From: a virus
IMG/VR virus record: IMGVR_UViG_3300009034_000170
Span: 1 to 29,294 of that record
DNA: 29,294 bases
Direction: 5' to 3' (one strand)
Notes under the pieces: model-generated
Databases searched by the model: none
Seen by the model: the letters and a program-made list of their open reading frames with translations, nothing else
Told to the model about the DNA's origin: nothing
Program-made: the position numbers and the translations under genes
In this document: positions 1,868-19,437 of the stretch, one piece after another
Position numbering within the stretch: the first letter of the stretch is position 1
How the letters are laid out: the number at the start of each line of letters is the position of its first letter

Positions 1868-1948
1868 ATAATAACATGGTTTATCGAACCACTAACAGAT
1901 GAAGAAATAAGAAGAAAAGAATATTATCCGTTTTTAGAACCAATTTAA
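1868..1948 (+). pseudogene. Possible remnant of a tiny gene (start codon lost)
   Basis: Directly after the TGA of the 1667 gene the same frame stays open for 26 codons, reading WFIEPLTDEEIRRKEYYPFL near its end, and stops at TAA 1946-1948. The composition looks coding. There is no ATG, GTG or TTG at its head: it starts ATA ATA, where ATG might have stood. It could be a degraded gene, a read-through tail of the upstream protein, or chance. Confidence 0.3.
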
Positions 1949-1964
1949 AAGAGAGGTAAGGGGT

Positions 1965-2117
1965 ATGGAAAAAAGAAAAATTTATTATTATTGTGCCGAA
2001 CTTGATGTATTTGAAAAGAAAAAATGTGGATATACAAAAACTTGTGCAGGTAAGACTAAAGATTGCAATAAAAGATATTATATTATTCCAGTAAAAAAGA
2101 GAGGTAAACCCCAATGA
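1965..2117 (+). CDS. Small Cys-rich protein, 50 aa
   Basis: Begins at ATG 1965 after GAGAGGTAAGGGGT, and its TGA (2115-2117) overlaps the ATG of the next gene (ATGA), typical of translational coupling. It contains four cysteines (YYYCAELDV, KKCGY, KTCAG, DCNKRYY), which could form a single metal site, and it ends in a basic tail, KKRGKPQ. Function unknown. Coupling to the larger Cys-rich protein downstream suggests that they act together. Confidence 0.65.
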   Translation: MEKRKIYYYCAELDVFEKKKCGYTKTCAGKTKDCNKRYYIIPVKKRGKPQ

Positions 2118-2842
2118 CTAAGGGAAGCGAGCAGTTGTATGTGTGTTCGAAAGGGAAAGAATGTAAAACAAAACATTGCGCTCAACACTGGAGACCACAT
2201 AAAAAACATGGTGGTTGCGTGATAGGAATTAGCGCTGATTGTCCTGCCTGTATCCCAGTAGAACCAGAGAAAAAATGTTGTGGTACTTGTGATAACTATA
2301 ATAGCGATGAAATGAAATGTATTTTATCTGGGTATTCAACAACCTATAGTGCTGAAGTTGATAAAGACAAATGCTGGATTCCTAAAGTAATAAAGGGCGG
2401 GAATTTTTCCAAAGAACCAGAGAAGAAAGAGGAGAAAGTAGATTGCGAATATTATCAAGGCACAGAAAAAGATAAATGTTATATGTTTTATAAAGCCGAT
2501 TGTAGGAATTGTAAGAAATATATTCCCAAAGGCACAGGCAAAGCAGTCGGGCAGGGGGTTGAGGAGATATTAAATGAATTACATGATGAAATAATACATG
2601 ATAATACACAATTAGAGCAGGAATTTATTAGTACAGAAGAATATAAAAGACGGAGTGATAATGCTATCTCGAAAGCTGAACAGCAACTCGAATCCTTTTT
2701 CCGGAAGGAATTTCATAAAGAAATTGAAGAAGTTGAGAAAAGTTTAATATCGTGTTTTAAATGGGCTGGATTATATAGTGACGAACAAATAAAAGATAGA
2801 ATTAAACAAAAACTTTCAGAACTCAAGCAATCCAAATGGTGA
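2114..2842 (+). CDS. Cys-rich protein with C-terminal coiled coil
   Basis: A 242-aa protein. The first 140 residues hold three Cys clusters: VCSKGKECKTKHC and CPACIP; CCGTCDNY to DKCW; and DCEYY to CRNCKKYIP. The middle cluster, CGTCDNY-CILSG-CW, resembles small zinc-binding modules seen in phage hypothetical proteins. Residues from about 145 onward are highly charged, helical and probably coiled-coil (many Glu and Lys, ending in IKQKLSELKQ). No enzyme motif was found. The gene overlaps its upstream neighbour by 4 bp. Metal binding and oligomerisation are inferences; function unknown. Confidence 0.75.
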   Translation: MTKGSEQLYVCSKGKECKTKHCAQHWRPHKKHGGCVIGISADCPACIPVEPEKKCCGTCDNYNSDEMKCILSGYSTTYSAEVDKDKCWIPKVIKGGNFSKEPEKKEEKVDCEYYQGTEKDKCYMFYKADCRNCKKYIPKGTGKAVGQGVEEILNELHDEIIHDNTQLEQEFISTEEYKRRSDNAISKAEQQLESFFRKEFHKEIEEVEKSLISCFKWAGLYSDEQIKDRIKQKLSELKQSKW

Positions 2843-2859
2843 TTAGGGGAGGGGGAAGA

Positions 2860-3027
2860 GTGAGTAAAATGAATCAGCAAAAAATTTTCTACTTTTGTAT
2901 GGGTTTTATTTTAATAGGCACTTTGATAAATATCTCTACTGTATATCTGTTTGGTTTAAGAATTTTCAATATTATAGTAGCTGCTATTATTTGCTGTTCA
3001 ATTTTAGTCCAATGGAGGTTAAAATGA
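2860..3027 (+). CDS. Small membrane protein, two predicted helices
   Basis: The start is taken as GTG 2860 (55 aa), because GGGGAGGGGG sits just upstream at about 2847-2855. An in-frame ATG at 2836 would place that purine run inside the coding region. Two hydrophobic stretches (IFYFCMGFILIGTLINISTV and IFNIIVAAIICCSILV) predict a hairpin in the inner membrane. The TGA overlaps the next ATG. Function unknown; superinfection or membrane-associated roles are possible but unsupported. Confidence 0.65.
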   Translation: MSKMNQQKIFYFCMGFILIGTLINISTVYLFGLRIFNIIVAAIICCSILVQWRLK

Positions 3028-3227
3028 AAGTTAAGGATTATATCGGAAAAACTTGTCTACTACAAAATAAATCCCCAGACCATGTTTGTGATTGGAAATT
3101 CTTAAGACTTTCAAAATCAGGAAAATGGGTTAAAATAGAATCTCAGATTCATTGTATATGGTGGGCTAACGTTAAAGAGATTGAAGAAAACTATGAAGTA
3201 TTGGAAATTCTGGAAAAAGAGAAATGA
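3024..3227 (+). CDS. Hypothetical protein, 67 aa (SH3-like barrel size)
   Basis: ATG 3024 is preferred over the longer open frame from 2895, because ATGGAGGTTAAAATG gives a ribosome site and the ATG overlaps the upstream stop (ATGA). The protein is a small, probably all-beta domain (MKVKDYIGKTCLLQNKS, then KWVKIESQIHC and YEVLEILEKEK). Such sequences are common among phage accessory proteins and have no assigned function. Confidence 0.7.
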   Translation: MKVKDYIGKTCLLQNKSPDHVCDWKFLRLSKSGKWVKIESQIHCIWWANVKEIEENYEVLEILEKEK

Positions 3228-4444: not shown

Positions 4445-5869
4445 ATGAATAAAAAGTTTACCAAAAATTATCATTCAAATTCCCAATTACTCCCCAAAAA
4501 TTTATCTTCAATACATAAAAAAGAGAATAAAAATTTTTCAAGACAAAATCAAGCTTTTGAATTATTTTATCTGGGGAGAGATATTCTGGGCTATGACCAA
4601 TTAACAAGATTGCATTTAGAATGGTTTGATATAATATCAAGATACAAAAAACTATTATTTCTTGCACCAAGAGACCATCTGAAGACAACGTGTTTCTCCA
4701 AGACTTATCCGATTTATAAATTACTTAAAAATCGAGATTTAAGGATTCTGTTGATAAATGAAATACTTGGAAATGCAAAGAAATTTTTAAGGGAGATAAA
4801 AGCTCATTTTCAACAAAATGAGAAATTCATAAATTGCTTTGGACATCTTGATGCTCTTGCGGATAAGTGGAATGAGGAAGAAATACTCATTCCAAGAAAT
4901 AGAATCAGTGGGGAACCTTCAATCAGTGTTGCGGGAGTTGAACAGGCGATTATATCAACGCATAGAGATTTAATTATGATAGATGACCCTGTTTCAGATA
5001 AAAACTGTCAGACAGCCACACAGAGGGAAAAGGTGAAAAGATGGTTGCAGAAGACCGTAATTCCGATTCTTGCTCCAAACGGGCAAATAGTAGTAGTTGG
5101 GAATCGGTGGCATATTCGGGATTTATATTCAGATATTTTGGAAGATAGAGATTTTAAGGGTTGGAAAAAGGTGGTGTTAAGTGCGGAAGACAGGGAAGGG
5201 AATATATTGTTTCCTGAAAGATTTCCCAGACAAAGACTCGATGATAAAAAATTTGATATGGGAACTGCAAATTATGCCACACAGTATTTGAACGACCCTT
5301 CCGCAACCATTGGTTTAGTATTTGCGAAAGAATGGTTAAAATATTTTCCTTCAGCTCCAGAAAATATGAGTAATTATCAAGGAGTTGATTTGGCAATATC
5401 ACGTAAAGAGCAAGGACATTATTTCGTAGTCGCTACAATCGGTCTCGACAAAGAAGGCAATGTCTGGATTCTTGATATATATAGAGACAGAATAAGTTTT
5501 CCCTCACAGGTAAAAGCTATAAAGAGAGAGAACGCTTATCACAAACCTTATCTGATTGCTATTGAATCGAATGCATATCAAGAGGCATTGCCAGAGACAT
5601 TGAGAACAGACCCTGAGTCAAAAAGATTACCTTTCAGGTCAGTCACAGCTCAAGGTGATAAAGTCAGAAGAATTAGCTCTCTTTCACCTCTGTTTGAAAA
5701 TGGAACTATAAGATTAGTCAAGGGAGAATGGAATCACGAATTTGAACAGGAGTATCTACAATTCCCGAAAGGAAGCAGTGATGATATATTAGACGCTTTA
5801 CATATAGCGGTTGAAGGAGCAAAACACCTTTTTAGAAAAGAAGTATCAGTAACTGTCGCAGGAGAATAA
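4445..5869 (+). CDS. terL: Terminase large subunit (packaging ATPase and nuclease)
   Basis: A 474-aa protein of standard length. ATPase domain: Walker A-like APRDHLKT (74-81), Walker B LIMIDD (176-181), and the coupling motif VVGNRWH (217-223). RNase H-fold nuclease domain: D315 in YQGVDLAIS, E374 in AIESN, and the acidic DDILDA cluster (446-451), giving the usual metal-binding carboxylates. It drives ATP-dependent DNA packaging through the portal and cuts the concatemer. The only sensible start is ATG 4445, which has no visible ribosome site; a TATTAT at 4433-4438 could make this mRNA leaderless too. The portal gene starts 2 bp after its stop. Confidence 0.93.
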   Translation: MNKKFTKNYHSNSQLLPKNLSSIHKKENKNFSRQNQAFELFYLGRDILGYDQLTRLHLEWFDIISRYKKLLFLAPRDHLKTTCFSKTYPIYKLLKNRDLRILLINEILGNAKKFLREIKAHFQQNEKFINCFGHLDALADKWNEEEILIPRNRISGEPSISVAGVEQAIISTHRDLIMIDDPVSDKNCQTATQREKVKRWLQKTVIPILAPNGQIVVVGNRWHIRDLYSDILEDRDFKGWKKVVLSAEDREGNILFPERFPRQRLDDKKFDMGTANYATQYLNDPSATIGLVFAKEWLKYFPSAPENMSNYQGVDLAISRKEQGHYFVVATIGLDKEGNVWILDIYRDRISFPSQVKAIKRENAYHKPYLIAIESNAYQEALPETLRTDPESKRLPFRSVTAQGDKVRRISSLSPLFENGTIRLVKGEWNHEFEQEYLQFPKGSSDDILDALHIAVEGAKHLFRKEVSVTVAGE

Positions 5870-5871
5870 CA

Positions 5872-7899
5872 ATGCTTAAAAATTTAAAAAAATCTTTAGC
5901 ACTAAGCTTTTTTGGAGATACGATAAAACAAGAAGTCACAAAAGCAAAAGAAGAAATTGTAAGAAGCTCAAGGCAGATTCTACCTTTGATTACAGCACAA
6001 GAGAAAGAAAAAGGAATTGAGCCTGACGTAACAGAGGAAGTTCTATGGGAAACTTATTTATCAGAATCTTGGGTTAGAGCAATCGTAGATTTAATTCAGA
6101 AGAGTTGTGTTGCTTTAGGTTATACCCTAACTCCCTTGAGTGATAAAGCAGACCAGAATCATCTGATTGAATTGGATGCGTTTTTCAAGAATTGTAATCC
6201 GAACGATACGATTATGGAAATGGTTTCGGATATTTCAAGAGATATAAGTATTTTGTCAAAAGCCTTTATGGAGATAGTCAAGAAAGATAAGAAGCCTTAC
6301 CAGTTATGGTCCCTTGACCCGATTAGTATGCGAGTCAAACAAAATGAAACTGGAAGGATTTTAGGTTACAGGCAGGAAGCAAACAAGGGGAGTAAAGACC
6401 CCCAATGGGGACCAGATGAAATAATCTATTGGCGTCTCGGTACAAGGGGTTCGAAGGCTATGTCTAATTCACCTCTCATAACCTTGGCAACTTCAATTAC
6501 AGTTGACAAGTACGCACAGATTTACAACAAGGCTTTCTTCCAGCATGGAGCAAAAGCAAAAGGTCATTATGTTATGAAGGACCAACCTCTGGAGGTGGTA
6601 GAGCGTAACAGAGAATATCTGAAATCGGTTGCAGAGAAACCAGAACTTGCACACATGGATTTGGTTTTTGAGGGAGATATTGAATACGAAAAGACAGGAG
6701 AGAGTCATAAAGATATGGAATTCGGAGAGGATAGAAAATTTATCCGAGATGAAATATTGGCTGTCTATGGTTGCCCACCTTCCTTGATTTCTATTATTGA
6801 ATCTGGCAATATCGGAGCTGGTACAGGTGAAACTCAAATAAAAAACTTCTACGAACAAACAATTATACCTTTGCAGAGAAGAATAGAAAATAAAATCACA
6901 AAGAAAGTTATCAAAGAGGGGTTTGGTTATGATGACTGGGCTTTTGAATTGAGGAAGAGAAAGGTAGCAGAAAAAGAAATGGCAGAAATTCTAAAGATTT
7001 TAGTTGATGCGAATATTCTTACCCCTGAAGAAGCAAGATTATATTCTGGTTATCCACCTCGTAAGGCAGTTGAATCATTGGAGAAAAAACTTGCTTTGAG
7101 AGTCAGAGGTATTCCATCTTTAGAAGAAAGATTTGAAAATGCTTTGAAAAGATTACTCAAGAGATTTGCAGAAGCAGGAAAGAGACAGCTCGAAAAACTC
7201 CCTCTTGCAAAAATGTTTTCAGTCTTGAAAGACGCTGAATATGAAAACAGAATTTACGAATCCCAGTTTAATGAATATATTTTTGAGTTGCATAAATTCC
7301 CTGTCAAAGAAAAACAGTTGAACATAGATGCGATACTTGAAACGATAAAAGAAGAAGATGTCAAAGAAGAACTGTCAAGATTTATGCAAGAAGCCGGGGA
7401 GTTCGGTGCTTCTACAGGAAATAAAAAGCTCGGTACTAAAGCTGTTCTTTCTGCTACAACTCTTGAGAGAATAGATGTGTACCTCACAGACTTGGCAAAG
7501 TATCTGAAAGAAACCATTGACTCAAGTGTGAGACATGAGATAGTTGAAGGTATCAGAGCAGGTGAAACTACTGCTGAAATATCTGCAAGAGTTGAGTCTG
7601 CACTCGACAAACCGATTAAGCACACTATAAATCCTAAAGCCAGAGCCGCTTACACAAAAAGATATAAATATTCTGCTACCGCTGAGTTGATAGCAAGAAC
7701 AGAAGTCAACCGAGCTTTCAATATGGGGATGGTAGATGTATTCAAACAGGCAGAAATTAAAAAAGTTAAGATTCTGCTTTCCCCAGATGCCTGTCCCGAA
7801 TGTCAGCCTTTCAGGAATAAGGTAGTGAATCTGGATGAAGCGAGTCAGATACTGCCGATTCACCATCAGTGTCGTTGCACATTTATTTCAGCGGAATAA
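5872..7899 (+). CDS. Portal protein fused to a MuF-like minor head protein
   Basis: A 675-aa protein, longer than a typical portal (about 400-500 aa). Residues 1 to about 400 match the HK97/SPP1-type portal pattern, with the clip and stem region around the GCPPSLISI to NIGAGTGETQIK segment. The C-terminal part, from about 555, has the MuF (SPP1 gp7/Mu gpF) signature: IARTEVNRAFNMGM, then DACPECQPF (639-647) and HHQCRC (664-669), a conserved Cys/His module. The start is ATG 5872 after GCAGGAGA. Portal and MuF are normally separate adjacent genes; here they are one polypeptide, so up to 12 MuF copies would be anchored at the portal vertex, facing the capsid interior. Confidence 0.88.
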   Translation: MLKNLKKSLALSFFGDTIKQEVTKAKEEIVRSSRQILPLITAQEKEKGIEPDVTEEVLWETYLSESWVRAIVDLIQKSCVALGYTLTPLSDKADQNHLIELDAFFKNCNPNDTIMEMVSDISRDISILSKAFMEIVKKDKKPYQLWSLDPISMRVKQNETGRILGYRQEANKGSKDPQWGPDEIIYWRLGTRGSKAMSNSPLITLATSITVDKYAQIYNKAFFQHGAKAKGHYVMKDQPLEVVERNREYLKSVAEKPELAHMDLVFEGDIEYEKTGESHKDMEFGEDRKFIRDEILAVYGCPPSLISIIESGNIGAGTGETQIKNFYEQTIIPLQRRIENKITKKVIKEGFGYDDWAFELRKRKVAEKEMAEILKILVDANILTPEEARLYSGYPPRKAVESLEKKLALRVRGIPSLEERFENALKRLLKRFAEAGKRQLEKLPLAKMFSVLKDAEYENRIYESQFNEYIFELHKFPVKEKQLNIDAILETIKEEDVKEELSRFMQEAGEFGASTGNKKLGTKAVLSATTLERIDVYLTDLAKYLKETIDSSVRHEIVEGIRAGETTAEISARVESALDKPIKHTINPKARAAYTKRYKYSATAELIARTEVNRAFNMGMVDVFKQAEIKKVKILLSPDACPECQPFRNKVVNLDEASQILPIHHQCRCTFISAE

Positions 7900-7900
7900 A

Positions 7901-10246
7901 ATGCAGGAAATCAAAAAAATAGTTGACTTAAAAACTTATAATCCAAAAGAACAAAACGATGCCCAGCTTCGAGATGATTACAGAATAGCTGCGGCTTGGT
8001 ATTCATCAATCAAAGCTGGGCAGAAATTAAAATGGTCTCAATCTCAAGTTGAGAATCTTACTATCAATATTCTGAAAGAAATTTTAAGTAGAGGGATTGA
8101 GAAATTCACACCTTTAGGAATGAAACCTGCCTCAAAAGAATTATTTATGAAATCAATCAAAAAGATTACTCTCCCTGGGGTTATACTTGTAGAACCTCAC
8201 GCACAGAATTCAATCAAAAGAAAAAAGACTTTAATAATAAAAACGAAACCTTTCAAAGAAATCACCACAAAACCAGTTCATCTTATTTCTAAAAATCTAT
8301 CTTACGGGGTTGCAAAGTTAGAAGAACCGAAAGAAATCTCTTTTAAGAAGTTTCACGATTTAAGAAGACAGCATTTGATTACAGAAGAAGAAAGATTGAA
8401 ATGGGCAAAGACAGAACCTTCCTGGAATAAAGAACCATTGTACTCTTTTGATTTCAAGGTATTGGTAGAATTTGAGAAACCAGTTAATATCACAAGGAAA
8501 GTTGGAACGCAGGTTTACCAAAGAGAAGTCATTCAAAAGAAAGTTGAATTGAAAGACCCGAAAGAATTATCGGATGAAGACTTACTTGAAATGTATCATT
8601 TTTTACATGAGGCTTGGAGAAAGAAAGAAGACGGAAAAAAAGTTCCTGAATTTCCCGAAAGAACTTTTGAGGCTATAATAAATTATTATGTTCTTGTAGT
8701 TCAAGAAATGCAGAGAAGGAAGATGGAATATACACCGATTGATGAATTAGATGAACAGGCAAAACCATTCTTAAAGTCTTTTGCTCCAGTACATCATTCA
8801 GGAGTAATCGAAGGCAGAGAGATTATTTTAAAAGATGTTTTGGGTCAGATTAAATCTTTCCTGCCTTATCCAACAGTTGCTTGGATAGTTGGTGGACTTG
8901 CAAACTGGGGCAAGACCAAAGGTGATATTGATGTTCTTTGGAAAATAACAGACTCATTTCCAGATTGGTTTAAGAATGTATTGATGTTTAGATTCGGCAG
9001 ACAATTCAGTAATCCAGATTTTGCCAGTAGAGTGCAACACCATTTCGATGCGTATCGTGGACCCTTCACTAATGCAGTTGAAATATATCGAATGAATATT
9101 GAAAGAGTAAATCCTCAAGGACAGATAAAAGAAGCGGGGTTTGAAGTAGAACCTAAAATAGTCAAAATGTTATGGGATGAAGAAAAAGAAGGATATATTC
9201 CAGATGATATAATATATCGGATTGAAAAACAATTAAGGGCAGGAACTCCAGAGATTAAAGAACAGGCAGATATTTCAGCCAAGAAAGATGAAGTCAAGGT
9301 TTCAAGATTTTTCTTACCTCTCAAGCCTACAAGGGGCTATAAGCCAGAGCAAAGACAAACCATAGAAAACTTTCTTGCATTATTTAAGCCTGAAAATTTC
9401 CCTGTCTGGTCTTCAAAGAAATATGATGGAGCAAATCACGAAGTACACAAGAAAGGTGATACTGTAAAAATATACAGTGAAGATGGAGAAGACAATACAG
9501 ATAGGTTTCCAAAATCAGTTGAGGAGTTCAAGAAACTTTCAGATAAAGATTTTGTTTTATTAGATGAAGTTGAATTATGGAGAGAAGGGAAACATTTACC
9601 CAGAGAGGCAGTGGTTGGTTATGTTCATGCCAAGGATGAACCAGATGATTCAGAATTAATACATAATATTTACGATATAGTTTATCTTGAGAAAGATATA
9701 CACAAAGTTCCTTTTGAAGAAAGAATAAAGAATCTACAGAAATTAAATATTAAGCAATCTACTTTTGGAATTCCTGATATGAAGTATCGGATAAATGGAG
9801 CACCTTATCTTGTTTCCAAAGATTTAAAAGAACTTGAAGGACACACAGAAAGATTAAGGAAACTTCCTGGAAGTGAAGGAAATGTCGCAAAGTTTTTTGA
9901 CTTTATTTATTTCTTAGATGGTAGAAGAAGTGGAATGATTAAATTTCATAATTCTGCAATTCTGAACGGAATTGTAACCGAAGTCAAGGAAACAAAAGTC
10001 AAAGATATTTTTAATTATACTTATGGAATTGACCCACAAAATTATGCAATAGAAGATGTTGTGGTTGTTGATGAAAAGACTTTTCTTAAAGTTGGCAAAA
10101 CTTTTTCAACCTCAATCAAAGCAAAGAAAGGTGATGTGATTGAGGTTGAATACGAGACATTGAATCTGGAAAAACACGAGACGGATGATGAAGAATTTTA
10201 TAAAGTAACTTGTTGGAGTCCAAGAGTTATGAAGGTTTTAGAATGA
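7901..10246 (+). CDS. Nucleotidyltransferase-like / ATP-dependent DNA ligase fusion in the head operon
   Basis: A 781-aa protein. The start is ATG 7901, directly after the portal stop; a longer frame from 7835 would overlap portal coding sequence. Residues 1-110 are unrecognised. Residues 327-347 (IVGGLANWGKTKGDIDVLW) match the GG...GDID signature of Pol beta-type nucleotidyltransferases, with D383 (HHFDAY) as a possible third carboxylate. The C-terminal half is a DNA ligase core: motif I KYDG with K507 as the AMP acceptor, motif III LLDEVELW (553-560), motif IIIa YDIVYL (from 591), motif IV SEGNVAK (658-664), motif V MIKFH (679-683), then an OB-fold-like tail with VGKTFSTS. The arginine usual in motif Ia (SRxG) is replaced: it reads SEDGED. 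Ligases are not normal head-operon genes; see findings. Confidence 0.8.
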   Translation: MQEIKKIVDLKTYNPKEQNDAQLRDDYRIAAAWYSSIKAGQKLKWSQSQVENLTINILKEILSRGIEKFTPLGMKPASKELFMKSIKKITLPGVILVEPHAQNSIKRKKTLIIKTKPFKEITTKPVHLISKNLSYGVAKLEEPKEISFKKFHDLRRQHLITEEERLKWAKTEPSWNKEPLYSFDFKVLVEFEKPVNITRKVGTQVYQREVIQKKVELKDPKELSDEDLLEMYHFLHEAWRKKEDGKKVPEFPERTFEAIINYYVLVVQEMQRRKMEYTPIDELDEQAKPFLKSFAPVHHSGVIEGREIILKDVLGQIKSFLPYPTVAWIVGGLANWGKTKGDIDVLWKITDSFPDWFKNVLMFRFGRQFSNPDFASRVQHHFDAYRGPFTNAVEIYRMNIERVNPQGQIKEAGFEVEPKIVKMLWDEEKEGYIPDDIIYRIEKQLRAGTPEIKEQADISAKKDEVKVSRFFLPLKPTRGYKPEQRQTIENFLALFKPENFPVWSSKKYDGANHEVHKKGDTVKIYSEDGEDNTDRFPKSVEEFKKLSDKDFVLLDEVELWREGKHLPREAVVGYVHAKDEPDDSELIHNIYDIVYLEKDIHKVPFEERIKNLQKLNIKQSTFGIPDMKYRINGAPYLVSKDLKELEGHTERLRKLPGSEGNVAKFFDFIYFLDGRRSGMIKFHNSAILNGIVTEVKETKVKDIFNYTYGIDPQNYAIEDVVVVDEKTFLKVGKTFSTSIKAKKGDVIEVEYETLNLEKHETDDEEFYKVTCWSPRVMKVLE

Positions 10247-10560
10247 ATAAGATAAAAGAGATATACATCAAAAGTAAATGGATAGGAGGTATTTCAGACG
10301 GTTTGACTTTGCAATGCTATTTATGTAAACGCATTCCAAAATTTGATTTTACTATCGAAGATAGTTTTTGGAATAAAATAGTACCCAAAAAATACAGGTT
10401 AGGAATAATTTGTTTACCGTGTCTTGATAAATTAGCCACAGAGAAAGGAGAAAATGTCGCAATATATTTGGAAAGAATTCAATTTACTGGAATAGGAAAA
10501 ACAATTTTATTAAAGCCTGAAAAAATATTTTATTATAAAAACAAGAGAGGTGTAAAATGA
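10243..10560 (+). CDS. Zinc-knuckle protein, 105 aa
   Basis: ATG 10243 overlaps the ligase stop (ATGA); a longer frame from 10210 lies within ligase coding sequence. The protein has CYLC near residue 26 and CLPC near residue 61, a two-CxxC zinc-ribbon arrangement. Between them is FTIEDSFWNKIVPKKYRLG, and the end contains LERIQFTGIG. This combination (CxxC, FWNKI, CLPCL, IQFTG) is familiar from short uncharacterised phage proteins. It is located between the ligase and phosphoesterase-like genes and translationally coupled to the ligase, so a shared task is plausible but unproven. Confidence 0.7.
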   Translation: MNKIKEIYIKSKWIGGISDGLTLQCYLCKRIPKFDFTIEDSFWNKIVPKKYRLGIICLPCLDKLATEKGENVAIYLERIQFTGIGKTILLKPEKIFYYKNKRGVK

Positions 10561-10694
10561 CAGGAGTAGATTGGTTTTTGATTGTTATACTGATACTTTG
10601 TTTTATAGGAAAATCTGATAAAGGAAGAAGTAGAACATATACCAGAAAAAAACCGACAAGTTTGCCACCTTCAGAGAGAAAAAAATCAATGTAA
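10557..10694 (+). CDS. Tiny membrane protein, 45 aa
   Basis: ATG 10557 overlaps the upstream stop (ATGA) and has GAGAGGTG before it. One hydrophobic helix (WFLIVILILCFIG) is followed by a strongly basic, Ser/Pro-rich tail (KGRSRTYTRKKPTSLPPS). By the positive-inside rule the tail is cytoplasmic. Function unknown. Confidence 0.55.
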   Translation: MTGVDWFLIVILILCFIGKSDKGRSRTYTRKKPTSLPPSERKKSM

Positions 10695-10704
10695 AAGGGA
10701 AAAA

Positions 10705-12342
10705 ATGAAAATTGATTCAGTAGATTCAGCAGTTGAGAAAGCAAAGAAGGGGTTAGTATTTCAACCGAAGACTATCACAAAAGAGAAAGAGATTTTGTAT
10801 AAAACTTTCTTAGAGAAGCAAGTCAAAAATCCTTATATGATAGTTCCAGATGAAGATGTAAGTTATAAATATGTTTGTCAACATCATTACAGGGGTAAGA
10901 CTTGTCATACCGATTATAGAATTGAATCTGAAAAGAAAGAGTTCTTAATTGGCTGGACTTTAGCTGATTTGATTAAAGGTGTGATTACTAAGCCAGTTGA
11001 AACTATGACTGTTGCAAGAAAATGGGATAAGACTTCAAGAGCTTGGAAGATAGATTGGAAAACTGGGAAATTTAAATTAAGAAGAACAAGAGCAGGTACT
11101 TTAGTTCCAGCAGAAATCAGGGCATTTGAGAAAGCAGTAGAACCACACGAATGGCTGAAGGTTGAAGGTGTTACTCCTCCGTTCCCAGCCCCAGGAGCAA
11201 CGAAAGAATTCAGAGGAGTCTTTACTGTAGTTGATGATGGCATTGGAGAATATGGTTCACAGAAGTTGGACTTCCACGAATATTTTTTAAGTAAAGGAAA
11301 ATTAAAAGGTAGATTAGTAACCCGCAGGTTAGTCAGAGGTCAGTTTCAAAAAGAATATGATATTGATAATGATATAGAAGAAAGCCTTGCTTTAGAAGAG
11401 AATGAAGAAATTCCTTTATGGCATTTCAAAAGGAATGTTCAACTTTACTTAAAAAATGTTTTAGGATGGCAACCTGAAAAGATTGAAAAGCATTTTCCCC
11501 TTGAAAAGAAAATGATTGATATAGAAAAGCAGTTTGGAGAGATTATGAAAGAACGTCAGGCAGTCTTGCCTCCTGGTACTCCCGAAGAGAGGCTTGTAAC
11601 CGCTACTTTCTGGGTAGCCATTCAACCGAAAGACCAGACACCTTATGTCTTACAGAAAAGGGCAGTTGATAAAAAATGGATGCCCCCTGATGGTAAATCT
11701 GCATTGCCCAAAGTTATCAGAAGGCAGATTCCTTCTGAATATCAATACTGGAAAGAGAAAGGAAAGAAAGCACAAAAAGTTAGGGATGATTTGGTCAAGG
11801 CTATAAAAGAAAAAGAAGTTGAGATTGACATAGATATAATAGCAAAGAATTATGAAATAGAAAAACAGGAATCTGGAAAATCTGTTTTACAGTTTCATTG
11901 GTGGCGGGGTCCTGTTGTAGTTCGCAGGGGGGCTTCCGAATACCATTTTGACTTCAGAGCATATTTTGGAAAGACTCCATTTGACCATTGGGTTTTAGAA
12001 GAGAATCCACTTGAACAGCCAGAAGGAGTATCTGCAATTTTTAAATCTTGCAGAGATGTTAAGACTCTTGATGTAGAATTTAATCCTCCTCCAAAAGATT
12101 CTCCGTTGGCAGAATACAAGAAAAGGTCAATCCCATTCAATACAGAACTTAATCCAACTAAGGCAACTCCAGCTTTTATTCAAAAGATAGATTCAGGCAG
12201 AGTTATAAAATTAATTGATAAACCATTATTTAAGAAATATCAGGTTACTACTGGAAAGATGAAGGGAGTATGGATAATAGAGCGTAAAACCCCGACGGAA
12301 AAAATTTGGAAATTCTCGAAATCGGCTTTGCCGAAAACCTGA
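10705..12342 (+). CDS. Protein with two LigD phosphoesterase-like HxDxR domains
   Basis: A 545-aa protein with a start at ATG 10705 after AAGGGA. Residues 59-72 read QHHYRGKTCHTDYR, close to the LigD 3'-phosphoesterase block (Q-K-H, then H-x-D-x-R), with H61, H68, D70 and R72 as candidate active-site residues and one extra residue in the spacing. GWTL follows where the family has SWAV, and EYG at 182-184 matches the family's later EYG. A second copy lies at 396-418: QFHWWRG, then EYHFDFR with H414, D416 and R418, followed by WVLEENPL. About 320 residues separate the two blocks. In LigD this domain removes 3' phosphates or ribonucleotides before ligation. The call is by motif only; non-catalytic structural use is possible. 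Confidence 0.6.
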   Translation: MKIDSVDSAVEKAKKGLVFQPKTITKEKEILYKTFLEKQVKNPYMIVPDEDVSYKYVCQHHYRGKTCHTDYRIESEKKEFLIGWTLADLIKGVITKPVETMTVARKWDKTSRAWKIDWKTGKFKLRRTRAGTLVPAEIRAFEKAVEPHEWLKVEGVTPPFPAPGATKEFRGVFTVVDDGIGEYGSQKLDFHEYFLSKGKLKGRLVTRRLVRGQFQKEYDIDNDIEESLALEENEEIPLWHFKRNVQLYLKNVLGWQPEKIEKHFPLEKKMIDIEKQFGEIMKERQAVLPPGTPEERLVTATFWVAIQPKDQTPYVLQKRAVDKKWMPPDGKSALPKVIRRQIPSEYQYWKEKGKKAQKVRDDLVKAIKEKEVEIDIDIIAKNYEIEKQESGKSVLQFHWWRGPVVVRRGASEYHFDFRAYFGKTPFDHWVLEENPLEQPEGVSAIFKSCRDVKTLDVEFNPPPKDSPLAEYKKRSIPFNTELNPTKATPAFIQKIDSGRVIKLIDKPLFKKYQVTTGKMKGVWIIERKTPTEKIWKFSKSALPKT

Positions 12343-12401: not shown

Positions 12402-12537
12402 AAAGTAAATATCAAGGTTAAGCGGTATTTAATCAGGATTCAAGAAATCTAATTAAGAAACCGATACACCGAACAAAGATATAACTTGAAAAGTTATTTG
12501 TTTGGTATTATCGGTTTTTTTATTTTTGGAGTAAAAG
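12402..12537 (+). ncRNA. Untranslated leader or small RNA between promoter and protease gene
   Basis: No ORF is present between the predicted start point and the ATG at 12538. The RNA would begin with an unpaired, A-rich 55 bases and end in the long hairpin at 12459-12521. It is either a 5' leader that attenuates the capsid operon or a free-standing RNA of about 120 nt. It resembles no riboswitch class known to me. Confidence 0.45.
12459..12521 (+). terminator. Long hairpin with T-run in front of the protease gene
   Basis: AACCGATA (12459-12466) pairs with TATCGGTT (12509-12516). ACCGAACAA pairs with TTGTTTGGT (one G-U pair). ATAACTT (12481-12487) pairs with AAGTTAT (12491-12497) around a 3-base loop. 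Seven T residues end the element (12515-12521). The form is that of an intrinsic terminator, yet it lies between a strong promoter and the capsid operon, so it probably works as an attenuator. Confidence 0.7.
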
Positions 12538-13950
12538 ATGGATTTTAAATTTCCGATATTAATTCAAAAGGCTTACGAAGATACAGAAGATAAAGAATTT
12601 CATATTACTGGTTATATCTCAACTTCTGCTCTTGACCTTCAGAATGATGTTATTGCTCCAGAAGCTCTTGATTTGAAATTAGAAGATTTTGCAACTCAAA
12701 CTTTATTATACAATCATAATCAGGACAGACCAATAGGTGCATTGAAAAAATTAAAGAAAACTAAAAAGGGTTTATGGATTGATGCAATTATTGATAGGTC
12801 TGCTACTATAATTGAAACTGGAATAAACGTAGTTGACGCAATCAAACAAAAAATTCTAAATAAGTTTTCATTCAAAGCAAAGGTAGTAGAAGCAGTTGAT
12901 AAATTTTTAAGTAGATATGATAGAGTAGTAAATTATGTTACAAGGATTCTACCAGTTGAGGCTTCTCTTGTTTGTGTACCTGCAAACCCAGAAGCTGAAG
13001 GATTAGGCTGGTACGAAAAATCACTATCAGAATTTCCAAGAGCAATTGGATGGTATTTAACCAAAGCTCTTGAAGAAAACGGAGGAAGAAAGATGCCAGA
13101 TGAAATTTTAGAGAGTGTTGGATTTCCAGAGATTGACAATGAGGAATTTTTTAAAGGTTTAGGTGATGTTGTTGAGGGTTCTTTTTTGACAGCAGATGAA
13201 ATATGTAAATCATTTGAAGAATTTTTGAAAGAAAGGAAACTCACAGAGAGTGACAAGCAAGATTTGATAGATAAATCTTGGGAAGAGTTTTGTGAATCAA
13301 AACAGCTTCCGAAACCTTATCCGAAATACCCTGTTCCTGCAGGACGTTACCCAGAACCGAAAACAGGTCAGTATCCGTATCCAGGACCCACAGTTTCAAA
13401 ACAGGCTATCAAAGAAATCTTCTTTCTACTGGATAAACTAACAAAGGGACCAAACGAAAAAATTACAAATATAGCAAAACAGATAAAGGCAATGCTGTCA
13501 AGGGCTGTTGAATATCCTACTCCAGCTACAGCATATCCGAAGCCTTATCCATACCCAAAGCCGGCAGGCAAGAAGGAGGGAGAGAAAGTGGAAGAAAAAA
13601 TTGAAAAATTGTTTGGAGAGTTAGGCATTGATGAAAAAGGACAGGAAGACCTGAAAAAGCAATTCCCGAAAGAAGAAGATTTGCTGAAACATCTTGAAGA
13701 GAAAGCGACTGCGAAAAAACTCGAAGATGAAAAGAATGAGAAAGAGAAAAATGAGAAGGGGATTGAGAAAAAGCTCAGTGATTTGATTGATGAAAAATTC
13801 AAAACTATTACTGAGAAAATCGAGAAGGGTGAAGTTGTAAGAAAAGGTCTTGACATAAACGAATCAAAAACAACTCTTGAAAAAGCTCTTGAAGGAAAGA
13901 GCGAACAGGAAAAGTTAAATATTCTATTATCCCTCGAACGTAAAGGATAA
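12538..13950 (+). CDS. Prohead protease fused to scaffold
   Basis: A 470-aa protein starting at ATG 12538, with GGAG 6 bp upstream. The N-terminal 160 residues are an S78/HK97-type prohead protease: GYISTSALDLQNDV, H60 in LYNHN, S111 in KFSFKA and E141 in PVEASLVCVPANP form the expected His-Ser-Glu triad. Residues about 255-285 and 325-345 are Pro/Tyr-rich linkers (such as YPKYPVPAGRYPEP and TAYPKPYPYPKPAG). The C-terminal 115 residues are a Lys/Glu-rich coiled coil, as in scaffold or delta domains. Protease and scaffold in one chain would self-remove after capsid assembly. The capsid gene is 570 bp downstream. Confidence 0.88.
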   Translation: MDFKFPILIQKAYEDTEDKEFHITGYISTSALDLQNDVIAPEALDLKLEDFATQTLLYNHNQDRPIGALKKLKKTKKGLWIDAIIDRSATIIETGINVVDAIKQKILNKFSFKAKVVEAVDKFLSRYDRVVNYVTRILPVEASLVCVPANPEAEGLGWYEKSLSEFPRAIGWYLTKALEENGGRKMPDEILESVGFPEIDNEEFFKGLGDVVEGSFLTADEICKSFEEFLKERKLTESDKQDLIDKSWEEFCESKQLPKPYPKYPVPAGRYPEPKTGQYPYPGPTVSKQAIKEIFFLLDKLTKGPNEKITNIAKQIKAMLSRAVEYPTPATAYPKPYPYPKPAGKKEGEKVEEKIEKLFGELGIDEKGQEDLKKQFPKEEDLLKHLEEKATAKKLEDEKNEKEKNEKGIEKKLSDLIDEKFKTITEKIEKGEVVRKGLDINESKTTLEKALEGKSEQEKLNILLSLERKG

Positions 13951-14517: not shown

Positions 14518-15438
14518 ATGATTAGAGATTTACAAGAACTTAAGAAAGCTTTAGATGTAGCAGCAGCGGGTGATGTTCTGTTACAACCTGAAGTTGACAA
14601 AGTAATTCAGTCCTTGATTTTGGTACATAACCCGTTGAGAAATAATGTGCCAAGAAAGAAAGGAAGCGGAAAACAGTGGATTGTCGTAAAGAGGTCAGTG
14701 GCTCCTGGAACGAATTGGGTGAATGATACCGAAGAACCAGCTGTTACAAATTCAACCTATCCTGCATGGGTGACTTTCGATTTCAAAGACATATTATTTA
14801 AGGGCAAAGTGACGCATAAACTTCAACTGACAGGATTATCGTACACTGATGTTAAATCAGCCGAAATCAATGCTGGGCTCGACGCAATTAAGAAAGATGA
14901 AGAAGATGCGATGATAAATGGTGATGCCAGTGTAACTCCAAAACAACCTTCTGGTTTGAGGAAACTCATTCCTGCGGGTCAGATAGTTGAGGCTGGCGGA
15001 GCAGGTGGAGACGGTGCTTCTTTAACCTTGAAGTTAATGGATGAAGCGATAGACCTTTGTTACGGATTGCCAGATATGATAGTTTGCTCAAAGCGAACCC
15101 GAAGAGAGTTAAATTCCCTAATGCAAGTGAAACAGAGATTTATCGATAAAGTTGAAGTGAAAGGTGGGTTTAAACTACAGTCCTACAATGACATTCCGAT
15201 TTACTGGACTCCTGCGATTTCAGATGCTCAAACTCAAGGTAGTTCAAGTGATGCAAGTGACCTATACATAGTTGATACAACTAAATTCTGGGTTGGTGTT
15301 CTCGAAGAATTGAGACAGGTTCCTTTAGCAAAGGTTTCTTCTCAATATGATTCCTTCGACATCCGTGAGAGTGTGACTAACGTTCTGGCTAATGAGAAAT
15401 ATTGTTCCCGAATCAAGGGAATAATTCCACCGAGCTAA
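14518..15438 (+). CDS. Major capsid protein, HK97 fold
   Basis: A 306-aa protein with a start at ATG 14518 after GTGAGGTG. The pattern is that of a short HK97-fold capsid protein: N-terminal helix region (LQELKKALDVAAAGDVLL), an E-loop-like segment around NDTEEPAVTNSTYPAW, the spine helix with KKDEEDAMINGD, and a C-terminal P-domain/A-domain with DMIVCSKRTRRELNSLM, YNDIPIYWTPAI and the DLYIVDTTKFWVG strand. It follows the protease-scaffold gene and is followed by a strong terminator, as expected for a gene expressed in large amounts. No long N-terminal delta domain is present, which agrees with a separate scaffold. Confidence 0.85.
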   Translation: MIRDLQELKKALDVAAAGDVLLQPEVDKVIQSLILVHNPLRNNVPRKKGSGKQWIVVKRSVAPGTNWVNDTEEPAVTNSTYPAWVTFDFKDILFKGKVTHKLQLTGLSYTDVKSAEINAGLDAIKKDEEDAMINGDASVTPKQPSGLRKLIPAGQIVEAGGAGGDGASLTLKLMDEAIDLCYGLPDMIVCSKRTRRELNSLMQVKQRFIDKVEVKGGFKLQSYNDIPIYWTPAISDAQTQGSSSDASDLYIVDTTKFWVGVLEELRQVPLAKVSSQYDSFDIRESVTNVLANEKYCSRIKGIIPPS

Positions 15439-15449
15439 AAGAATAATCA

Positions 15450-15479
15450 GAGAGGCGTATTTCTACGCCTCTCTTTTTT
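15450..15479 (+). terminator. Intrinsic terminator after the capsid gene
   Basis: GAGAGGCGTA (15450-15459), loop TTTC, TACGCCTCTC (15464-15473), then six T. A perfect 10-bp stem. Genes downstream must rely on read-through, antitermination or a promoter not recognised here. Confidence 0.95.
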
Positions 15480-18354: not shown

Positions 18355-18715
18355 TTGGGCAAAGATGCCAACAGTCAGAGGATACGTAGATTTTAAAACA
18401 ACTGATTTACAGAATACTTTTTACAATTTACTAAATTCTAAAAGAACTAAATGTATAGATAACGCATTGGTAGAGAAACAAAATGTTATTGTAGATATAA
18501 GTACGGGTGTTACAAAAACTATCTACAGGGTTACATTTTATATGAATTTCAACATACAGAATATCTCTGATAGAAACCAAATAAAACTATCAACAACAAC
18601 TTTTAAAATTAATAACAATATAGTTGATTATAAATTTGAAATATGGGAAAGCAACAATGATGGAATTCCAGGGCAATGCAAGCCCGATAAAATAAGGGAA
18701 TTGCTTTTGAAATGA
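18290..18715 (+). CDS. Signal-peptide protein whose leader overprints the upstream gene
   Basis: A 141-aa protein. GTG 18290 is supported by AAGGAG five bases upstream. The alternative ATG 18365 has no ribosome site and would remove the leader. The N terminus (VIRRRFILSMVIFLIPLISWA) is an ideal Sec signal peptide with a triple-Arg n-region and cleavage after Ala25. Nearly all of it is encoded inside the 17518 gene in a different frame. The mature domain (KTIYRVTFYMNFNIQNISD, then a Cys near each end) suggests a small beta fold, possibly with a disulfide. Function unknown. Confidence 0.6.
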   Translation: MEMVIRRRFILSMVIFLIPLISWAKMPTVRGYVDFKTTDLQNTFYNLLNSKRTKCIDNALVEKQNVIVDISTGVTKTIYRVTFYMNFNIQNISDRNQIKLSTTTFKINNNIVDYKFEIWESNNDGIPGQCKPDKIRELLLK

Positions 18716-19437
18716 AGATAATCCTACTTTTGCTTTTTTTATTTTTGTCTTCACAAGTTTATCCTCAGAACGAAGGATGCAGAGGACTTGATGGCATTGA
18801 TGATTATGTTGATACTAACGAACAGGCTATCTTTCAATTTGGAACAGGGGATTATTCTTATATGTTTTGGATGTATCCTACAAATTGGGGTAGTGATTAT
18901 GTAGTACCAATATCAAACGACCACTATTCTGGGATGTGGGAAAGTATCCATATAACGTGTGAACGTGGCGTTGCCCCCCTAAATAGATGCAGAGTTTATT
19001 CAGGAGATAATTTTAATTGGCTAAATAGTGTTACAGTTTTCACAAATAATAATTGGTATCACATAACAGTAACCAGAGTGTCTGGATTGGTGACTATTTA
19101 TGTAAACGGAGTTTATGATAACAGTACCACAATTACTAACAGTGTTACTGTGGCAAGAAATATGTATATCGGCAGAAATGTAGACCCGACATATCCGAGA
19201 CACTTTCAGGGAAGAATAGATGAAGTCAGATTTTGGAATTATGGGCTATCTTCAGAGCAGATACCAGAAAAGATGGATAGGGTTATTGCTGATGAAGAAC
19301 CTGGACTTATTTGGCATTCAAATATGGATGAACCAGCAGGTAATGTTTTTGATAGATCTAAAACGGGAGGGGCAGGAACGGTTACGGGAACGTACGCAGA
19401 TATTAACGCACCGATTAAAAGAATTATTGGAGAATAA
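18712..19437 (+). CDS. Signal-peptide LamG-like (concanavalin-type) domain protein
   Basis: A 241-aa protein. ATG 18712 overlaps the upstream TGA. The signal peptide MKIILLLLFLFLSSQVYP leads into a LamG_3-like jelly roll: GLDGIDDYVDT (residues 25-35), a YMFWMYP strand, NNWYHITVTRVSG followed by TIYVNGVYDNS, and the closing GRIDEVRFWNYGLSSEQI. These are the classical landmarks of the family, which binds carbohydrate or protein ligands. A tail-associated receptor-binding or host-adhesion role is likely. Its location between the capsid and connector genes is unusual. Confidence 0.78.
   Translation: MKIILLLLFLFLSSQVYPQNEGCRGLDGIDDYVDTNEQAIFQFGTGDYSYMFWMYPTNWGSDYVVPISNDHYSGMWESIHITCERGVAPLNRCRVYSGDNFNWLNSVTVFTNNNWYHITVTRVSGLVTIYVNGVYDNSTTITNSVTVARNMYIGRNVDPTYPRHFQGRIDEVRFWNYGLSSEQIPEKMDRVIADEEPGLIWHSNMDEPAGNVFDRSKTGGAGTVTGTYADINAPIKRIIGE

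Follow-up and report, generated by a model that had tools for sequence, protein, structure and literature searches.

A DNA ligase and tandem LigD-type phosphoesterase domains encoded beside portal genes in viruses of bacteria and archaea

Introduction

Bacterial LigD combines a polymerase (POL), a phosphoesterase (PE) and an ATP-dependent ligase (LIG) in one functional unit. The name LigD usually, though not always, implies an archaeo-eukaryotic primase (AEP) primase-polymerase domain. The window analyzed here is the whole of a 29.3-kb virus record (IMG/VR record IMGVR_UViG_3300009034_000170; 29,294 nt). Next to its portal gene, two genes are predicted to encode a DNA ligase and a protein with two LigD-type phosphoesterase domains. 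An initial annotation of this DNA had described the region as a split, rearranged LigD-like end-joining set.

In Pseudomonas LigD, His42, His48 and Asp50 of the phosphoesterase domain bind manganese, and the phosphate-binding residues His84 and Tyr88 are essential (PMC8656161). The stand-alone LigD-type phosphoesterases of archaea (3p43, 3p4h and 5dmp) are single small proteins. Among tailed phages, mycobacteriophages recruit the LigD of the host by means of their own Ku (Pitcher 2006, as cited in PMC7719229).

Multidomain phage proteins encoded beside late genes and MuF/portal genes are, according to one proposal, packaged and then injected together with the phage DNA (PMC5512222). Pol-beta nucleotidyltransferase, methylase and 2H domains occur in these polyvalent proteins, and their paucity in archaea has been remarked upon (PMC5512222). 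LigD goes unmentioned in the main text of Iyer et al. 2017 (PMC5512222), where the only ligases named are RNA ligases, in the section on 2H domains. In phage P1, the DarA/Hdf proteins are attached to the capsid, contact DNA and are gone from emptied heads (PMC12810830).

Conservation and gene order of the module

In the window, the portal gene (5872..7899, plus strand) encodes a portal protein (PF04860 8.5e-39) with a C-terminal MuF domain (PF04233 2.5e-9). Between the portal and protease genes there are, all on the plus strand, a gene for a 781-aa nucleotidyltransferase (NTase)-ligase protein (7901-10246), two small open reading frames (ORFs) and a gene for a 545-aa protein (10705-12342) that contains two phosphoesterase domains, PE1 and PE2. 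The ATG of the first gene begins one base past the portal stop codon. All of the ORFs named in the initial annotation are present in the window, and its placement of the set between portal and capsid genes is confirmed by the identification of the portal with its C-terminal MuF domain, an S78 protease and an HK97-type capsid protein.

Single-protein pattern scans of viral contigs recover no relative, and Foldseek against viral models has no match at E<0.001. Relatives surfaced only once the archaeal virus ANMV-1 supplied a two-sequence alignment. With the phosphoesterase alignment as the only query, 28 loci are recovered from IMG/VR, and these carry the ligase. A scan with the NTase-ligase alignment alone recovers 23 loci, and these carry the phosphoesterase. 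Five further loci from a scan of GTDB genomes are in metagenome-assembled genomes (MAGs) from Dehalococcoidia and four archaeal groups. The resulting sample consists of 44 non-redundant loci, including the window, whose ligase domains taken together fall into 34 clusters at 70% identity across the sample. Ligase and PE1 occur together in 41 of the 44 loci, and in 35 they form a single polypeptide.

Upstream sequence of 2 kb or more is available for 33 loci, and 31 of these have a portal gene in it, often no more than a few hundred bases away. These neighbouring portals come from several portal families. Protease or capsid genes are found within 3 kb downstream in 25 of the 35 loci with at least 2 kb of downstream sequence. 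The pairwise similarity matrices of the LIG, NTase and PE1 domains correlate with one another (r 0.70-0.72; 0 of 2000 permutations are as high), so the parts travel together. As judged from sequence, these patterns support the ligase and phosphoesterase as a unit conserved beside portal genes in viruses of bacteria and archaea. The initial annotation had proposed looking for co-occurrence of the families of the 7901, 10243 and 10705 ORFs next to portals and had held that homologues of the two enzyme genes never being neighbours would count against it. The 7901 and 10705 families do co-occur in this way, but the 10243 ORF does not take part in this pattern.

The 10243 ORF (10243..10560, plus strand) encodes a 105-aa CxxC protein with no Pfam match, and the ORF after it (10557..10694, plus strand) encodes a 45-aa hydrophobic peptide. 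Both frames are open, but neither has relatives at any fetched locus, and because of this they are not placed in the conserved set. On sequence grounds, the CxxC (zinc) and membrane ORFs are incidental. Their inclusion in the set, as a zinc-knuckle protein and a tiny membrane protein, is rejected.

In ANMV-1 (locus L002, KP703175), a single 866-aa protein is homologous to both window genes and begins seven bases after the portal gene. This protein, AJP62006.1, is annotated as an 'ATP-dependent DNA ligase', and its two phosphoesterase domains are unrecognised in the record. The preceding gene (1913-3193), annotated as a MutT-like hydrolase, is the portal gene (PF06381 3.2e-22). The position directly after the portal is the same as in the window, whereas the fusion into one polypeptide is different. 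The distribution of fused and separate forms indicates that the two-gene split is an exception, local to the window virus and a few other lineages. In L030, a second copy of the ligase domain is located downstream of the PE2 half (8779-10086; PF01068 3e-15), and in L005 a separate 147-aa ORF (1028-1471) interrupts PE2, with PE2 halves on both sides.

The NTase-ligase gene

The protein encoded by 7901-10246 consists of an N-terminal domain, a Pol-beta-like NTase domain and an ATP-dependent DNA ligase with catalytic and OB-fold parts. The ligase domain (9278..10243, plus strand) matches PF01068 at E 6e-15, over the Pfam cut-off. Its motifs are I (KYDG, Lys507), III (9563-9580), IIIa (9665-9685), IV (9869-9892) and V (9932-9952), and a C-terminal OB fold is present. 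The KxDG lysine of motif I is kept in 40 of 40 alignable members of the family; for the glutamate of motif IV and the lysine of motif V, the count is 41 of 41 each. The AlphaFold model of the protein has a pLDDT (predicted local distance difference test score) of 81.8, with values mostly above 90 in the ligase part. Model residues 449-781 align (VIA) with human LIG1 on nicked DNA (Z ~23, 2.8 Å, 289 residues), with the OB fold in the DNA-ligase arrangement. The ligase model also aligns with archaeal ligases. Sequence and model together indicate that the gene encodes an ATP-dependent DNA ligase, with a predicted sealing activity. The window record has no PF01068 match besides the module ligase. 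The same is true of 12 of the 15 records of relatives, and the remaining three have no match to PF01068. Weak matches to Pyr_excise and ComC in this gene are below cut-off and were disregarded.

The NTase region (8783..9151, plus strand; boundaries approximate) carries a G-G...DxD motif, with VGG at 8888 and GDIDVL at 8921-8938. The G and DxD residues are invariant in 38 of 38 family members. The Pfam model PF01909 matches this region in four of 23 members (best 0.0084). The description of a ligase and a nucleotidyltransferase-like domain in one gene is thus borne out. The N-terminal domain (7931..8560, plus strand; boundaries approximate) is defined by its own hidden Markov model, which matches the window, L003, L006, L012, L014, L026, L031, L038 and others. 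It is mobile in the family and sits at differing positions of the relatives' polyproteins.

The phosphoesterase gene

The 10705-12342 protein alone has nothing significant in Pfam, PHROG or PDB sequence searches. Its identity as a phosphoesterase rests on family profiles and a structural model, and a single Pfam scan would miss the window protein. When compared by hhalign with a reference of 13 Chloroflexota LigD PE domains, the family profile of PE1 (10825..11340, plus strand; boundaries approximate) gives a probability of 96.3% (E 1.4e-9) and that of PE2 (11608..12330, plus strand) a probability of 97.9% (E 2.3e-12). Controls with column-shuffled profiles and with the ligase and NTase profiles are all below 0.3%. 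Among the first-domain sequences of relatives, LigD_N matches nine of 26 and TIGR02777 matches 11 of 26 (best 2e-7).

The model of the 10705 protein has a pLDDT of 79.6. It has four Foldseek matches at E<=0.001, all of which are LigD-type phosphoesterases. PE2 aligns with the archaeal phosphoesterase 3p43 (VIA; Z 15.6, 2.1 Å, 121 of 124 residues). The VIA matches cover mainly PE2, and the fold of PE1 rests on profile homology and the confident model. Both lines of evidence indicate that the two tandem domains are homologous to the LigD 3'-phosphoesterase, in agreement with the duplicated phosphoesterase-like domains of the initial annotation.

In PE1, the residues equivalent to LigD His42, His48 and Asp50 (His61, His68 and Asp70 in the window) are invariant in 39 of 39 sequences, and the equivalent of Arg52 (Arg72) is kept in 38 of 39. 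The position of His84 is mostly glutamate or glutamine, and that of Tyr88 is tryptophan in 39 of 39. From these sequences, PE1 is probably a working metal-dependent esterase with an altered phosphate-binding side. The metal triad of PE2 is kept in about 18 of 39 members of the family, including the window virus, and is lost in about half.

Additional domains in the relatives

The chains of some relatives add domains that act on DNA or nucleotides: D12 adenine methylase, metallo-beta-lactamase (MBL)-fold and 2H phosphoesterase domains. This extra-domain company is seen in L006, L016, L031, L038, L039, L022, L009, L012 and L017, and the longest relative chain is 2241 aa. The ligase/PE polyproteins of L006 (4248-9446), L031, L039 and L012 contain MBL-fold and/or D12 N6-adenine methylase domains. 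In L017 (4392-9290), a 2H (2'-5' RNA ligase-like) domain is located between the ligase and PE1 (PF13563 5.7e-8). In L061 (704-4576), a 1290-aa protein has the NTase and ligase fused with a D12 methylase fragment and an S78 prohead protease. An Apyc1-like or Acb1-like identity for the MBL and 2H domains has no sequence support.

Comparison with described systems

The module shares with bacterial LigD the pairing of the PE family with an ATP-dependent ligase, and most relatives have both in one chain. It differs in having a Pol-beta-like NTase in place of an AEP primase-polymerase, two tandem PE domains, substitutions at both phosphate-binding positions of PE1 and a site in the head operon. The LigD primase-polymerase (PF21686) is absent from 16 virus records, including that of the window. 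No Ku was found in the virus records of 15 relatives, the window record not being among them, or in three host-MAG records; these records may be fragments. The initial annotation had called for a check for Ku or polymerase genes elsewhere, and neither appeared in the records searched. The NCBIfam matches of the window ligase to general ATP-ligase models are no worse than those to LigD models, and all are far below the equivalog cut-offs. The reading as a split, rearranged LigD is not borne out by these results, and the fused form is the commonest. In terms of predicted activity, the module resembles LigD in that it joins healing to sealing. It is not LigD, because the polymerase, the domain linkage in the window genome and two PE residues do not agree with LigD. 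LigD-type end healing is a prediction, since PE1 retains the metal triad but carries replacements at His84 and Tyr88.

The archaeal stand-alone phosphoesterases are the closest solved folds to PE2 (Z 12-16). Unlike these single small proteins, the PE domains of the module are in tandem and are tied to a ligase and a portal. As far as the mycobacteriophage system is described in PMC7719229, both cases concern tailed phages that use or would use end-joining chemistry to close the genome. The mycobacteriophages supply Ku and make use of the host's LigD, whereas the present virus supplies a ligase and PE, and no Ku was found in the records searched.

Polyvalent proteins are large multidomain enzymes that carry several disparate catalytic domains per polypeptide and are encoded beside late virion genes or MuF/portal genes (PMC5512222). 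The 7901 protein contains both an NTase and a ligase, and the family is located beside portals at 31 of 33 loci, with a MuF domain in the window portal. The ligase/PE family occurs in archaeal viruses, whereas polyvalent proteins are said to be scarce in archaea (PMC5512222). By analogy, the module resembles polyvalent injected phage proteins in composition and portal/MuF location, and it may likewise be injected.

Flanking features

The window genes typify a tailed virus, with Pfam and PHROG matches to a terminase, a portal with MuF, an S78 protease, an HK97-type capsid and a tape measure. The terminase large subunit gene (4445..5869, plus strand; PF17289; phrog_38 E 3e-92) precedes the portal gene. 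The S78 prohead protease gene (12538..13950, plus strand; PF04586 2.2e-11) and the HK97-type major capsid gene (14518..15438, plus strand; PF17236 and PF05065) follow the module.

A strong hairpin with a U-run is located between the module and the protease gene (12455..12520, plus strand; -25.9 kcal/mol, z -6.9 versus shuffles; sequence read directly). This terminator-like hairpin may separate the transcripts of the module and the protease gene. Its position after the PE gene is consistent with co-transcription of the module with the terminase and portal. The intergenic segment 12369-12520 contains a near-consensus sigma-70-like promoter (TTGACA, 17 nt, TATAAC; by eye) followed by the hairpin. 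This element would be either the terminator of the portal-ligase-PE unit or a leader of the protease-capsid unit.

A symmetrical 11-bp terminator-like hairpin that matches both strands is found right behind the major capsid gene (15449-15474). A short C5-cytosine methylase-like ORF is present at 713-1342 (PF00145 E 1.8e-9). Several secreted-looking ORFs are found downstream of the capsid gene, among them a Laminin-G/concanavalin-like domain protein at 18712-19437 (PF13385 E 1e-23).

Discussion

The domain identities, folds, active-site conservation, co-inheritance, fusion and synteny of the family, all taken from sequence and models, point to a single unit. The two genes probably form one DNA end-healing and sealing unit that acts on viral DNA around the time of packaging and entry. 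This timing is the most likely one, given the tight linkage to the portal and the head genes that follow. PE1 would most likely clean 3' ends by taking off a 3'-phosphate or a terminal ribonucleotide. The 3'-OH/5'-phosphate ends or nicks left in the viral DNA would then be closed by the ligase. PE2, which is often without the metal triad, would probably position the DNA or partner domains. The unit might be an internal head protein that is ejected with the DNA and repairs and circularises it, or it might mend nicks at the time of packaging. The enzyme activities, the DNA substrate and the presence in virions are predicted here, as are the timing and any role of the NTase.

Several observations weigh against this unit. 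Three loci are without one half (L019 has no ligase, and no PE is detected in L061 and L065). The chemistry of PE1 may differ from that of LigD, given its replaced phosphate-binding residues. No DNA-binding domain was identified N-terminal to the ligase. The virus records behind these results are all linear and could be incomplete.

A role restricted to late, intracellular repair is possible, if rather unlikely. The unit would then mend nicks and damaged 3' ends in concatemers so that terminase can fill heads, it would stay unpackaged, and the gene order would reflect co-expression with the terminase gene (terL) and portal. The module lies in the same direction as these genes and ends in a strong terminator-like hairpin, and no virion-targeting signal is identified. 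As the only ligase in the records, it could serve replication too. However, the adjacency is specifically to the portal and extends across several portal families, and in ANMV-1 terL is elsewhere, on the other strand. Some fused chains are also very large and include methylase and MBL domains, and these look more like delivered proteins.

A stronger form of the end-healing and sealing unit is tentative and remains doubtful. The family would be a virion-carried, Ku-independent end-joining machine common to tailed viruses of bacteria and archaea, in which the Pol-beta-type NTase would functionally replace the LigD polymerase. The ejected complex would heal, fill and seal the ends of the incoming genome, and circularisation would then require no host enzymes.

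It is distinctly unlikely that the module is an injected anti-defence protein whose chief role is to shield incoming DNA or blunt host nucleotide or restriction defences. The ligase and PE would undo nicking, and the D12, MBL and 2H domains of relatives would counter restriction or signalling. The nine loci with such domains, the polyvalent-protein theme (PMC5512222) and the parallel with P1 DarA/Hdf (PMC12810830) are in its favour. None of the extra domains is identified in the window unit, though, and the near-universal part of the family is the ligase/PE core. The MBL and 2H parts of relatives have no sequence match to solved anti-defence enzymes.

A true phage LigD that uses host Ku in non-homologous end joining is very improbable. 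The shared PE family and ATP-dependent ligase, and the phage precedent cited in PMC7719229 (Pitcher 2006), would fit. The missing primase-polymerase and Ku in the records searched, the general character of the ligase matches, the different PE1 active site and the origin of several carriers from archaeal MAGs do not. That the two proteins are exapted structural head proteins with dead enzyme folds, which the initial annotation had named as an outcome that would count against it, agrees with their location among head genes and with the loss of the PE2 triad in about half of the family, but it is scarcely credible and is rejected because the active sites are conserved across a divergent family (KxDG in 40 of 40, motifs IV and V in 41 of 41, the PE1 triad in 39 of 39 and the NTase DxD in 38 of 38).

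No paper describing a ligase and a LigD-type PE beside a portal was found in the open-licence literature (supplements excluded). Each component is already known. What appears undescribed in the literature searched is that they are combined, that the PE1 site is altered, that the linkage to the portal is tight and that the family extends over viruses of both bacteria and archaea. The public annotation of ANMV-1 is corrected at two places, since its 'ATP-dependent DNA ligase' has two phosphoesterase domains and the 'MutT-like' neighbour is a portal.

The module represents a widespread and apparently undescribed family in which enzymes predicted to heal and seal DNA ends are linked with the portal, in viruses of bacteria and of archaea alike. 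If active, it would be a new pairing of ligase and phosphoesterase in which the PE active site is altered, and the range of injected polyvalent proteins would come to include a DNA-repair core in archaeal viruses. It would also provide a host-independent way to close or repair viral genomes. The presence of the same pair in the same place in dozens of distant viruses suggests that these viruses bring along tools of their own with which to mend or close the genome around packaging or injection.

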